DNA of 22,900 bases from a virus, in the IMG/VR virus record IMGVR_UViG_3300037189_007653, positions 1 to 22,900 of that record, one strand, 5' to 3'. The position numbers and the translations under genes were made by a program. Below, piece after piece: positions 10,636 through 14,953 of the stretch. The notes beneath the pieces are model-generated. The model ran no database searches, was not told the DNA's origin, and saw only the letters and a list, made by a program, of their open reading frames with translations. The stretch's first letter is position 1. The number at the start of each line of letters is the position of its first letter.

Positions 10636-11379
10636 TTAAATTAGCTCCATAAGAGCTGCCCATGTCTTAGGCCCTACGATTCCGTTAGAGTCTAGGTTGT
10701 CATGGTTATCTTGGAACGCGATAACTTTTGCCTTTGTAGCTGGACCAAAGTCACCGTCTTCAACAAGAGTCAAAGCATGCTGAATAGCTTTAACTGCTTC
10801 TCCCTTATCTCCAGGCTTAATCTGACCAGGGAATGCTGGCTTAAGCGCTGGAACTGGGTCTACGTGAACTTCATTGCCCACATAGTTAGGGCGGCCGAAG
10901 CCAACGATAAAGACTGGAATGCCCTTAGCATTGCGCTTGTAGGCACGAACCTTCTTTACAGCTTCTCCACCATTTGCCTGTGAACCAGACTTCTTCTTAT
11001 CTCCGCCAGTGTTACCTTCAATAGTAGTCACTGTGCCGTCTCCATTGTCCTTTACAACAATACCGACGTGCTCAATAGGGGCTCCACCTGTTACAAAGTC
11101 GAAGTAGACGATGTCGCCAGGCTCTGGCTTAGCTACTGCTGCGTCTGTCCAGGTGCCGAGCTTCTTAAAAGCTGCTGCGCCTGCCATTGTTGAAACAGTG
11201 TTAGGAATCTTTACGCCCGCTTGGTTCGCTACCCACATGCAGAACGAGCCGCACCATGGGAGGAAGTTAGCCTTAGTAAAGGCACCGTACTTAGTTTCGT
11301 TGTCTTTTGGACCTTCTACATAGCCTTCTTCTTTGAGGGCAATCTCTACCATCAAAGCGGCTGTGCCTTTGTCTGCCAT
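10636..11379 (-). CDS. Endolysin: CHAP amidase/peptidase plus peptidoglycan-binding domain
   Basis: 247 residues. The N-terminal CHAP domain cuts peptidoglycan peptides: catalytic Cys43 in LPWCGSFC, His104 in PIEHVGIV, and Glu121/Asn123 in TIEGNTGG. GDIVYFDF before the His is typical. The C-terminal 60 residues are a PG_binding_1 domain (LKPGDKGEAVKAIQHAL-like core, DGDFGPATKAKVIAFQ, GIVGPKTWAAL). No signal peptide is seen, so it should need a holin to cross the membrane; two small membrane proteins are encoded directly upstream. AAGGAG precedes the ATG. The identity is firm. Confidence 0.95.
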   Translation of the reverse strand: MADKGTAALMVEIALKEEGYVEGPKDNETKYGAFTKANFLPWCGSFCMWVANQAGVKIPNTVSTMAGAAAFKKLGTWTDAAVAKPEPGDIVYFDFVTGGAPIEHVGIVVKDNGDGTVTTIEGNTGGDKKKSGSQANGGEAVKKVRAYKRNAKGIPVFIVGFGRPNYVGNEVHVDPVPALKPAFPGQIKPGDKGEAVKAIQHALTLVEDGDFGPATKAKVIAFQDNHDNLDSNGIVGPKTWAALMELI

Positions 11380-11389
11380 TTGTTACTCC

Positions 11390-11719
11390 TTAGTTATAGT
11401 GTGGGTCGTTTTCTTTAGCAACTGGTGCAATTGTAATGGCTGTGCCTGTTTGATTGGCCTCAACCTGTAGGTCAGCTGCTGTCTTTGAATTGACGTCGAC
11501 TGCTGCAAAGGCAGAGTTGATTTCATCTAGAGAGAGCTTGCCGTCGTTCATAAAGCCACGAGCTAGCTTTTCAACAACTGCAGCTACTGCAGTGAGACCA
11601 GCTACTGTGACAGCCTTTAGTACTGAGATGCCTGCGATAGAGCCAGCACCAATAACGCCGAGTCCGCTAGCAGCAAATACTGCGACGATTCTTAGTAGGA
11701 TGTTTCCTGTTAATTTCAT
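11390..11719 (-). CDS. Membrane protein next to the endolysin, holin candidate, 109 aa
   Basis: The N-terminal 50 residues contain two hydrophobic segments (ILLRIVAVFAASGLGVIG and about 30-48, ISVLKAVTVAGLTAVAAVV). Then comes an amphipathic soluble part with DGKLSLDEINSAFAAVD, which resembles a single EF-hand-like loop (DxxxSxDE). AAGGAG precedes the ATG. It lies 10 bases before the endolysin and follows another small membrane protein, the usual order for a lysis cassette. The calcium-loop resemblance is weak and not a claim of binding. Confidence 0.82.
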   Translation of the reverse strand: MKLTGNILLRIVAVFAASGLGVIGAGSIAGISVLKAVTVAGLTAVAAVVEKLARGFMNDGKLSLDEINSAFAAVDVNSKTAADLQVEANQTGTAITIAPVAKENDPHYN

Positions 11720-11721
11720 TA

Positions 11722-11913
11722 TTACTTCTCCTTAGGGTTACGGATACGAAGGGTCACAATCCAGATAACGAATGAAACGAGGGTCACTTGACCGATAACG
11801 GTTTTAGCCGAACCAGTCAGGACTAGCCAGGCAGAGAAAAGACCGACAAAGGTCCAAATCTCGCTGAAGAAGTCAGCTGATACGTCCTTGCAGAACTGCC
11901 ACATTCTTTTCAT
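11722..11913 (-). CDS. Small two-helix membrane protein, holin candidate, 63 aa
   Basis: Two transmembrane helices (about 17-34, EIWTFVGLFSAWLVLTG; about 39-55, VIGQVTLVSFVIWIVTL) joined by a short loop, with a basic C-terminus (RIRNPKEK). This size and topology is that of a class II holin. Its ATG overlaps the previous stop as TAATG, and it is translated just before the second membrane protein and the endolysin. I recall similar EIWTFxGLFxAWLVLTG proteins in actinophage lysis regions. Confidence 0.82.
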   Translation of the reverse strand: MKRMWQFCKDVSADFFSEIWTFVGLFSAWLVLTGSAKTVIGQVTLVSFVIWIVTLRIRNPKEK

Positions 11914-14759
11914 TAGTTTCCAAATCTCCTTCTCACGATAGCTCCAACTGCGACAGTTAGAACCAAGATTTTTTTAGCTTTCTTACGGGTTACTGGACTC
12001 ATATCATTGCCAATGTTTGACATAGCAACGAACGCATGGTTTAGGGCCTGGACGCCTGGGACTACCGCAAGAGCCCCATCAACAGGGGTCTCAATAACGG
12101 GTACGGCAACGTCAGGTGCATTAAATGTTGTTCCGCCTGGTTGCCCAATAAATGTTTCACTTAAGGTTACCGCATCAGGTGGAATCTCAAGCCCTGAACC
12201 TGGTGGAGGGGCTGGAGGGGTTAGGGTTCCATCTTCAAGAACAACCTGTGGTGAGGTCTGAGTACCAAAGAACTGAATACCGCCATTCTCCACGCCCTTA
12301 ACGTCTACCTGGACGTGAGGCACAAGAATCTCCACAGGCGCAGGCTTAGGCTTGTCTGTAGGTAGCTGAGCGGCATTATTAGGGACAATGCCAATCTCTT
12401 TAAAGACTTGAATCTCTGCAGGCTTCATGTAAGTTTCTGGTGCAACAGCTGGCTTCCAGGTCTCAGCTGTAGTATCTTTAGTCACTACAACAATAGGAGG
12501 TGGCGGTGGAGGAGTCGGACCAGGAGCTGGAGTTGGCGGCTCAGAAGGCTTTGGAGAAGGCGAAGGTTCGATGGGCGGCGTTGGCTTTTGAGAGTCAGCC
12601 AGTGCCTGAGCAGCAGCTGCATCCGCAGCAGCCTTAGCATTAGCTTCTTCTTGAGCTAACCTTGCAGCTTCATCTTTAGCACGTTGCTCTTCATCAGCTT
12701 TCTTTTGAGCTTCTAACGCAGCATCTGCTGCCGCTTTATCAGCAGCTGCTTTCTCAGCTGCAGCAGCGTCTGCGGCTGCTTGTGCATCTTTCTCTGCTTG
12801 AATACGAGCGTCTTCCTCAGCTTTAGCCTTAGCTGCGTCTGCTTCTTTAGCAGCTTGCTCTGCAGCTATACGTGCATCCTCTGCAGCCTTAGCTTCGGCA
12901 GCAGCTTTCTCATTAGCCGCTTGCTGCGCGGCAGCTGCAGCCTCATCTTTGCGCCTCTGTTCAGCGATAGCTGCATCTCTAGCTGCTTTCTCTGCAGCAG
13001 CCTTCTCAGCTGCAAGTTTATCTGCTTCAGCTTTAGCTTTATATGCAGCTGCCTTTTCAGCCGCAGCCTTAGCTTCAGCTGCAACCTTCTCAGCGGCTAT
13101 ACGTGCTTCCTCAGCTAATCTTGCAGCCTCAGCTGCAGCAGCTCGCTCAGCGGCAATTCGTGCAGATTCAGCCGCATCTACTGTAGTTTTAACAATGTCT
13201 ACTGCAGTCTCAAGAGCAGCCTTAGCATCGTTAGCCTTAGTGTTAGCCACATTAGCTAGGTCTACAGCAGTAGCAACGGCGGCTGTAGCTGTATCAGTTA
13301 ACTGTGTTAGGTTTTCTTGAGCATTGGTTAGGTTTGCTTGAGCAGTAGTTAGGTTTTCTTGGGCAGTAGTTAGGTTTTGCTGTGCTTGGTCATAAGCAGC
13401 TTGTGCTGCAACAGTAGCGGCAGCATTATCGGAAGCAGCATGAACAGCAGCTGTGTAGGCATCCCAAGCCGCATTTCTCTCCGCAAGCTTTGTATCATAA
13501 GCAGCCTGAGCGGCTACAACGGCTTGGGCAGTAGTAGGAATAGCGGCCTGAGCTGCGACTGCTGCCGCCACTAATACTGGGTCTTTAGTGGTTGTAGTAG
13601 TTCCAAAGTTAGGCGCTGTAGGGCTTGTAAAGTAGCCAGTACCATCCGCTTTAGTGATACCCCAACCTAGGGTACAAACGGCGCCTCCACCGTTCTCGTA
13701 GTACCAAATAACAAAGCTATGCGACTTGTCAGTAGTCACGTCGTATACGGGGCTACGGTTACTCCAAGTAGGGCCCTGGTCTCTCCAGTTATTAATAGCA
13801 AGGTTTCCATTGACATACATAATGGCGCCATCGTCTGAATAGACTTGATAAAAGATATTTACAGCATCGGCTGGGACAGTGACTGTTCCTTCAAACTTTA
13901 CAATCACACGGTCGGAAGGCCCATTAAGAACAGAACCGCTGCCCCAGTTATAGATAACCTGTGGGACAGTTGTTGTAAGGATAGGCGTGGAGTTAGCGGT
14001 AGGAAGGGCTGGTGTACGACCTGTGCCGTAATAGAGTGTTGCTGTTACCCCATTAGTTGTAGTGGTAACTGTGGAGTTATCCGCGGCAGCTTGAGCTATA
14101 GGTGCTGCAGTTACTGCTGCGTCTGCTGCTGCTTGAGCTGGAGCAATTTGGTCATGCAAAGGACCTAGCTCAGCGTTGGTGTTGTAGAAGTGAACGCAGG
14201 CAGAACCTTCTGTGCAAGCTGCTGCTGCGTCTAAAGCAGGCTGTGCCTCTTGTAAAGTAGTTAATGCGGTTTGGGCAGTAGTAACGGTTTCCGTGTCTAT
14301 TGTGACTGCATTTTGAGCGAGGGCAACAACTGCAGTTTTGTCTTCTACTACTGAGGTTTGAGTAGCAACAGCTTGTATAGCAGTTACTGCTACTGCGGTG
14401 GCTGTGTCCGCAGCTTGAATAGCACTTACTGCAGCTTGAACCGCTGTAGTAGATGCTGCAACAGCTGCTTGAACTTCTGGGCTGCTCTTAGCTTCTGTTA
14501 ACTTAGTTGGGGTATTAACAATGGTAGTGACGGCGGTCTCTGCCGCGGCGGATGCTGTGCTAACTGTAGCTGTGGCGGTATCTATAGTTGATACGGCAGA
14601 AGCTAGAGCATCTGCAAGGCTAGTGGTTGCCGTAGAGGTATCTAGGGCAGGCGAAATAGCTACCTGTTCGGTAGTGCTATCTGCGTGAGCATGTGATTGT
14701 CCAAACAAAAAAAGGAGTGTTGCAAGAAATAGTGCAGCGAATAGACGCTGTGCTTTTAT
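11913..14759 (-). CDS. Exported PA14/coiled-coil surface protein, apparent ATA start, 948 aa
   Basis: I place the start at ATA 14759. GGAG lies five bases upstream, and ATAA overlaps the previous stop just as ATGA junctions do elsewhere here. From there the protein has a full Sec signal peptide: MKAQR, hydrophobic LFAALFLATLLFLFG, and cleavage after AHA at residue 26. A TTG start at 14708 would destroy it. Domains: Ala/Thr-rich helical region (27-235), PA14 carbohydrate-binding-type domain (about 237-379, with SDDGAIMYVNG), a long TolA-like Ala/Lys/Glu coiled coil (about 540-750), Pro-rich linker (PSPSPKPSEPPTP), and a C-terminal KKILVLTVAVGAIVRRR anchor. It is upstream of the holin-like and endolysin genes. 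It may span the cell wall for lysis, exclusion or attachment. A virion fibre is the alternative. Confidence 0.85.
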   Translation of the reverse strand: MKAQRLFAALFLATLLFLFGQSHAHADSTTEQVAISPALDTSTATTSLADALASAVSTIDTATATVSTASAAAETAVTTIVNTPTKLTEAKSSPEVQAAVAASTTAVQAAVSAIQAADTATAVAVTAIQAVATQTSVVEDKTAVVALAQNAVTIDTETVTTAQTALTTLQEAQPALDAAAACTEGSACVHFYNTNAELGPLHDQIAPAQAAADAAVTAAPIAQAAADNSTVTTTTNGVTATLYYGTGRTPALPTANSTPILTTTVPQVIYNWGSGSVLNGPSDRVIVKFEGTVTVPADAVNIFYQVYSDDGAIMYVNGNLAINNWRDQGPTWSNRSPVYDVTTDKSHSFVIWYYENGGGAVCTLGWGITKADGTGYFTSPTAPNFGTTTTTKDPVLVAAAVAAQAAIPTTAQAVVAAQAAYDTKLAERNAAWDAYTAAVHAASDNAAATVAAQAAYDQAQQNLTTAQENLTTAQANLTNAQENLTQLTDTATAAVATAVDLANVANTKANDAKAALETAVDIVKTTVDAAESARIAAERAAAAEAARLAEEARIAAEKVAAEAKAAAEKAAAYKAKAEADKLAAEKAAAEKAARDAAIAEQRRKDEAAAAAQQAANEKAAAEAKAAEDARIAAEQAAKEADAAKAKAEEDARIQAEKDAQAAADAAAAEKAAADKAAADAALEAQKKADEEQRAKDEAARLAQEEANAKAAADAAAAQALADSQKPTPPIEPSPSPKPSEPPTPAPGPTPPPPPPIVVVTKDTTAETWKPAVAPETYMKPAEIQVFKEIGIVPNNAAQLPTDKPKPAPVEILVPHVQVDVKGVENGGIQFFGTQTSPQVVLEDGTLTPPAPPPGSGLEIPPDAVTLSETFIGQPGGTTFNAPDVAVPVIETPVDGALAVVPGVQALNHAFVAMSNIGNDMSPVTRKKAKKILVLTVAVGAIVRRRFGN

Positions 14760-14953
14760 AGTCTCTCCATTACAGATTCGGGGTCGAATAACTGTATTGC
14801 TTTAACAATGATACTAGCTTTTAACTTTTTTGCGTGGTGACCGCAGAACATTAATTCACCATTGATAAATGTAGCTACAACCTTAGCGGCTGCGCTACAC
14901 GCGTCACAGCGGTCTTGGGCCGTTAGTTCTCTGCCGTCAACTACTGTTTGCAT
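14756..14953 (-). CDS. DUF7455-like zinc protein, 65 aa
   Basis: The pattern LTAQDRCDACSAAAKV, then GELMFCGHHAKKLK, matches a small zinc-binding family found throughout actinobacteria. Metal ligands are likely Cys16, Cys19, Cys37 and His39/His40. The host versions are often encoded near housekeeping sigma-factor genes; their function is not established. AAGGAGAG precedes the ATG. The stop TAA shares four bases with the apparent ATA start of the next gene. This is one of the clearest indicators of an actinobacterial host. Confidence 0.87.
   Translation of the reverse strand: MQTVVDGRELTAQDRCDACSAAAKVVATFINGELMFCGHHAKKLKASIIVKAIQLFDPESVMERL

Follow-up and report, generated by a model that had tools for sequence, protein, structure and literature searches.

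Does a large exported protein of an uncultured phage really begin with ATA, and if so, what does such a start do? The question is raised by a locus in an IMG/VR fragment (record IMGVR_UViG_3300037189_007653), of which we analysed a stretch of 22,900 nucleotides, referred to here as the window. On the minus strand the upstream 65-residue gene ends ATG GAG AGA CTA TAA. The same bases, read onward in another frame, give ...ACT ATA AAA GCA CAG CGT CTA TTC GCT GCA CTA..., so that the ATA shares bases with the upstream stop TAA (the overlap is ATAA). GGAG (14768-14765) ends five nucleotides before the ATA, and translation from it yields a signal peptide, ahead of whose cleavage site the sole ATG, GTG or TTG is a TTG at 14708, 17 codons in. 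The initial annotation had described the ATA, the GGAG, the signal peptide and the overlap correctly in every detail, and had proposed either true AUA initiation through stop-start coupling, with lowered expression, or a sequence error or SNP. The features of the locus are listed in Table 1.

Table 1. Features of the locus in the window, with the evidence for each.
Feature	Position	Strand	Evidence or remark
Exported protein gene, 948 aa, ATA start	11913..14759	minus	Translation
AUA start codon	14757..14759	minus	AUG near-cognates at the same codon in relatives
Signal peptide IKAQRLFAALFLATLLFLFGQSHAHA	14682..14759	minus	Cleavage before D27, predicted by eye
Shine-Dalgarno GGAGAG	14763..14768	minus	Sequence; duplex energy comparison
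Hairpin CAGCG-TCTATT-CGCTG, +10 to +25 from the start codon	14735..14750	minus	Covariation, conserved codons
PA14 domain, residues 236-370	13650..14054	minus	Pfam PF07691, E=4e-10
C-terminal motif NIGNDMSPVTRKKAKKIL, hydrophobic stretch, RRR tail	11916..12017	minus	C-termini of complete relatives
Upstream gene, 65-aa DUF7455 protein, ATG start	14756..14953	minus	Pfam PF24254, E=2.5e-18
Downstream gene, 63-aa membrane protein, ATG start	11722..11913	minus	Context and control
109-aa membrane protein, holin-like by position, ATG start	11390..11719	minus	Control gene
CHAP / peptidoglycan-binding endolysin, ATG start	10636..11379	minus	Control gene

A search with the DUF7455 protein retrieved 80 viral contigs, and almost every one that carries the cassette has the same large exported gene after the DUF7455 gene. 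Further members were retrieved by DNA patterns and by protein. The relatives have a strong Shine-Dalgarno sequence between the upstream stop and the exported gene, and the codon three before a conserved CTG-CGT is ATA, ATT, ATC, TTG or, in a few, ATG. Our census comprises 103 distinct ORFs with the signal-peptide motif, taken from loci carrying the neighbour genes and unfiltered by start codon: ATA 31, TTG 25, ATG 19, ATT 13, GTG 6, ATC 5, CTG 1 and TCA 1. Two of the 103 rows are unrelated ORFs, and ATA, ATT or ATC occupies the aligned start codon in 49 of about 101 genuine family rows. The single TCA row (L006) probably has a displaced CTG start three codons earlier. Given this displaced CTG and the unfiltered counts, all genuine members in this census begin with AUG or with a codon one or two bases off (UUG, GUG, CUG, AUA, AUU or AUC). 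UUG and GUG are ordinary start codons. Aligning homologues, as the initial annotation had suggested, places ATA, ATT, ATC, TTG, ATG or GTG at this codon in related phages, and because the same codon is AUG or a near-cognate in relatives, an ATA at precisely this position is far beyond chance. A sequencing error or private SNP concealing a real ATG can be dismissed: the G-to-A change would preserve the upstream stop (TGA to TAA) and MKAQRLFAAL would be a textbook signal peptide, but the 31 ATA, 13 ATT and 5 ATC members are distinct and spread across the family, and several of them recur unchanged in contigs of separate metagenome samples (L013/L014, L003/L004).

On a tree of the three neighbour proteins the start codon has changed at least 23 times, and the ATA label must have switched at least six times even when supported branches alone are counted. 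The distribution is therefore not one frozen accident. A separate oddity is a member (L163, minus strand, start near position 240) whose initiation region is almost identical to that of its close relative L201 but which has GTA in place of the ATA start codon. GTA differs from ATG at two bases and recalls the GTC start of sigR, described below.

Could translation begin somewhere else? At the same loci a canonical start lies within reach in 96/96 DUF7455 genes, 74/74 holin-like genes and 90/90 endolysin genes, by a control method that picks canonical codons only (ATG, GTG or TTG, on or close to the codon where the first residue aligns). Comparing the exported gene with these controls gives a Fisher p of about 5e-32, on rows that are not phylogenetically independent. 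For 81 of the 90 endolysins, ATG already stands at the first aligned codon, and the 63-residue downstream membrane gene likewise shows a canonical start when nearly all its homologues are inspected. Elsewhere in the window, the ORF list offers an ATG or GTG opening for the tiling genes, the exception being one listed TTG. For the exported gene, 25 of 32 ATH clusters (starts ATA, ATT or ATC) contain no in-frame ATG, GTG or TTG from the upstream stop through codon 26. Codons 10-26 have a dN/dS of about 0.19-0.27, against 0.50-0.68 in the stretch of this frame that immediately precedes the start; the pairs behind both ranges are not independent. With no canonical start and a low dN/dS, the signal peptide must be made, and must therefore begin at a non-canonical codon.

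These results make a start at an internal canonical codon, giving a protein without a signal peptide, very improbable. In the window that codon would be TTG 14708, the first start in the frame that is common in the translation table. It sits within the hydrophobic core of IKAQRLFAALFLATLLFLFGQSHAHA/D with no Shine-Dalgarno sequence nearby, most ATH relatives have no canonical codon before codon 26, purifying selection acts on the signal-peptide codons, and the ATG members begin at the homologous position. Two further candidates were rejected: the conserved CTG of the hairpin described below, which is CAG in the window, L005 and L018, and a fusion to the upstream gene by read-through or frameshift, as in-frame stops lie between the two genes in most relatives. 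In a search for a phage-encoded initiator tRNA able to read AUA, no tRNA gene with a UAU or CAU anticodon turned up in the window or in 30 loci, the genomes being incomplete.

True AUA initiation, as proposed in the initial annotation, is supported by the recurrence of AUA, AUU and AUC at this codon in dozens of independent contigs, by the strong Shine-Dalgarno sequence and by the purifying selection on the signal peptide; the lowered expression proposed along with it is a suggestion that the initiation site invites. The coupling to the upstream stop fares less well. Use of AUA solely through termination-reinitiation with the upstream gene, to which the ATAA overlap of the window points, is very improbable as the general explanation: the overlap is peculiar to the window among the relatives inspected, in most relatives ~10-50 nt separate the upstream stop from the start, and the ATA relatives with such a spacer have a strong Shine-Dalgarno sequence of their own.

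How strong is the ribosome-binding site that accompanies each codon? Our main Shine-Dalgarno tests exclude loci found only through a Shine-Dalgarno pattern. ATH starts have a median anti-Shine-Dalgarno duplex energy of about -7.3 to -8.5 kcal/mol, whereas the ATG members of the context-selected set have a median of 0.2, essentially no Shine-Dalgarno sequence (Mann-Whitney p=0.001 against other starts). Over all sets assembled without Shine-Dalgarno selection the same comparison gives p=7e-8, and a fair Shine-Dalgarno sequence is present in 5 of 15 ATG clusters. The swap can be seen between close relatives whose signal-peptide DNA differs by 10-13%: L088 has ATG and a weak Shine-Dalgarno sequence where L172 and L298 have ATA and AAGGAG, and L034 and L041 have ATG with none where L045 has ATA and AGGAG. 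In the neighbouring control genes an AUG start comes with a strong Shine-Dalgarno sequence, so that an AUG lacking one is unusual at these loci. When phylogeny is considered, five supported independent contrasts are obtained, of which 2-3 are concordant and none opposite, which is not significant. With so few supported contrasts, compensation between start codon and Shine-Dalgarno sequence is suggestive, not proven.

A mild excess of structure around the Shine-Dalgarno sequence is seen in none but the non-AUG groups (mean z -0.8 and -0.7, versus 0.0). An upstream hairpin with the Shine-Dalgarno sequence in its loop is plausible in several groups; because the stem test is not significant (p=0.12 for ATH starts) and the folding-energy signal is mild, we do not claim one. 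Four members (L007, L023, L047 and L006) carry, 5' of a CTG start, a perfect inverted repeat, GTTGTC-GAGGGAGAA-GACAAC, which places the Shine-Dalgarno sequence in a hairpin loop.

Downstream of the start codon lies a second conserved element, absent from the initial annotation. This is a hairpin with a stem of five base pairs. Its onset is nine bases past the start codon's first base, and no other hairpin of its type occurs in the window, where 0.03 would be expected by chance. The family form is CTGCG-N6-CGCAG. When loci are selected by nothing but the upstream gene, 36 of 38 have all five pairs, and pairing stands at 97.5%. Double changes affect three of the five pairs: a U-A to A-U exchange (CAGCG/CGCTG in place of CTGCG/CGCAG) in the window, L005 and L018, with L019, a close relative of L018, retaining U-A; a C-G to U-A exchange (TTGCG/CGCAA) in L026; and a G-C to A-U exchange (CTACG/CGTAG) in L052, a locus found through the neighbouring membrane gene. 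G-U pairs occur in several lineages, and none of 500 shuffles reached the covariation score. Synonymous differences in the hairpin codons, measured in close pairs, run at roughly a quarter of the level in the adjacent codons (0.07 vs 0.28). The two codons between start and hairpin are free to vary while their number is constant. The loop is not conserved, and the hairpin is missing from the two members of the CTG group that were checked (L006 and L007). It accompanies ATG starts as well, so it is not tied to a non-AUG codon. We regard both the start codon and the hairpin as well supported.

What is the hairpin for? It is unlikely that the inverted repeat is an element of the DNA, for example an exchange hot spot for the variable part of the protein. 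Such a role would suit L030 and L031, which share the upstream region and the signal peptide and differ in protein sequence right after, but the fixed spacing, the site in the initiation region and the G-U pairs of several lineages fit an RNA better. A regulated translational operator has a better chance, although we still hold it to be distinctly the lesser possibility. Here a phage or host factor would bind the hairpin, or shifts in IF3 availability would be felt, so that synthesis is timed and not merely limited. The hairpin is fixed two codons past the start although both codons vary freely, its pairs covary and include G-U, and the structure excess around the Shine-Dalgarno sequence is confined to the non-AUG groups; against this, the loop is unconserved and Rfam reports no known element in the window at gathering score.

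We think it likely, then, that this is a genuine AUA start, a weak codon kept by selection within a family-wide weak initiation site with a hairpin, and that few copies of the protein result. The initiator tRNA would read AUA, and weakness would be achieved by either of two designs, one that sets AUA, AUU, AUC or UUG behind a strong Shine-Dalgarno sequence and one in which the start is AUG but the Shine-Dalgarno sequence is poor or missing. In the first, the ribosome would be recruited by the strong Shine-Dalgarno sequence onto a codon imperfectly matched by the initiator tRNA, and IF3, by analogy with known cases presumed to discriminate against the non-AUG start, would reject most of these imperfect initiation complexes, so that few proteins are made. 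Lying at +10, the hairpin would be encountered where mRNA enters the initiating ribosome, and may serve there as a brake, an aid or the target of a regulator. The outcome would be a large exported protein, scarce in vivo, whose gene stands just before the lysis genes.

Several known systems resemble this one. The AUU or AUA start of infC, which encodes IF3, the AUA of Staphylococcus aureus ccpN and the AUU of cvfC1 are alike in having a conserved start with a strong Shine-Dalgarno sequence (PMC13009471). Reporters with AUA and AUU starts in S. aureus reach about 10% of AUG, a figure that for ccpN rises to as much as 30% in rich medium (PMC13009471). The genes concerned are cellular regulators whose start codon stays the same (PMC13009471), whereas the phage family encodes an exported protein, switches its start among AUA, AUU, AUC, UUG and AUG, and conserves a hairpin downstream. 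Experiments in Streptomyces have shown that IF3 holds down expression from the GUC start of sigR (PMC5472188). It shares with our gene an actinobacterial setting, a non-canonical start and an extended ribosome-binding site; it differs in its codon, in belonging to a sigma factor gene and in that its IF3 dependence has been demonstrated, while that of the phage gene is presumed. A study of compensation between start codon and Shine-Dalgarno sequence likewise found the weaker codon with the stronger Shine-Dalgarno sequence, but among AUG, GUG and UUG and under selection for a high initiation rate (PMC5622118); the common AUA, AUU and AUC of the phage gene suggest selection for a low one. The best reading is probably an initiation site that is deliberately throttled, like that of sigR (GUC) or ccpN (AUA), plus an unexplained RNA hairpin.

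What kind of protein would be made in this way? The 948-residue product consists of a signal peptide, a PA14 domain (found in the window and in some relatives), an Ala/Lys/Glu-rich helix, a Pro-rich part and a C-terminal hydrophobic stretch followed by RRR, and is probably membrane-anchored. Members of the family have long Ala/Lys/Glu-rich stretches, Pro-rich stretches and a strongly variable middle. Complete members with very different middles share the C-terminal GxDMSPxxRxxAxK, the hydrophobic stretch and a basic tail. This motif region matches nothing in NCBIfam at the curated cut-off, and may act as an anchoring or sorting signal. The mature part seems to be exchanged between phages, as the pair L030 and L031 suggests. 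An exported protein held in the envelope and needed in few copies is a natural inference from this layout and from the gene order, in which the DUF7455 gene and the exported gene are followed by a cassette of two small membrane proteins and the CHAP endolysin. The 109-residue product of this cassette (11390-11719) matches PHROG 26427, which is labelled a nuclease; the label may be wrong, as the protein is hydrophobic and lies beside the endolysin.

The host is probably an actinobacterium, given that the terminase is 53% identical to those of the Streptomyces phages LuckySocke and BRock and that the DUF7455 matches in cultured phages are all in phages of actinobacteria. Matches in cultured phages are limited to a weak PA14, the DUF7455 protein and the terminase, with none to the cassette genes; by annotation, the phages closest by terminase have no counterpart in their regions, and the genome contigs searched contain no relative.

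IF3-limited non-canonical starts are already known in cells (PMC5472188), and our literature searches, of partial coverage, returned no phage gene family with such starts. What is new is the combination, within a single phage gene family, of recurrent AUA, AUU and AUC starts and a hairpin at a fixed place downstream. Documented native AUA, AUU and AUC starts are few, and here they are common and recurrent. The family offers a naturally occurring set in which start codons are paired with different Shine-Dalgarno strengths, and with which the setting of initiation rates can be tested. It also has a lesson for annotation: ordinary gene finders miss the true start of the exported gene, and gene callers limited to ATG, GTG and TTG drop the signal peptides of these proteins and thereby hide their export.

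It is a rather doubtful idea that the non-AUG start and the +10 hairpin together form a translational switch, sensing the state of the host's initiation factors or binding a phage regulator; if true, it would time production of the exported protein before lysis. On our preferred reading of a weak initiation site, this family of uncultured phages, whose hosts are probably actinobacteria, apparently uses a non-AUG start to keep a large exported protein scarce.
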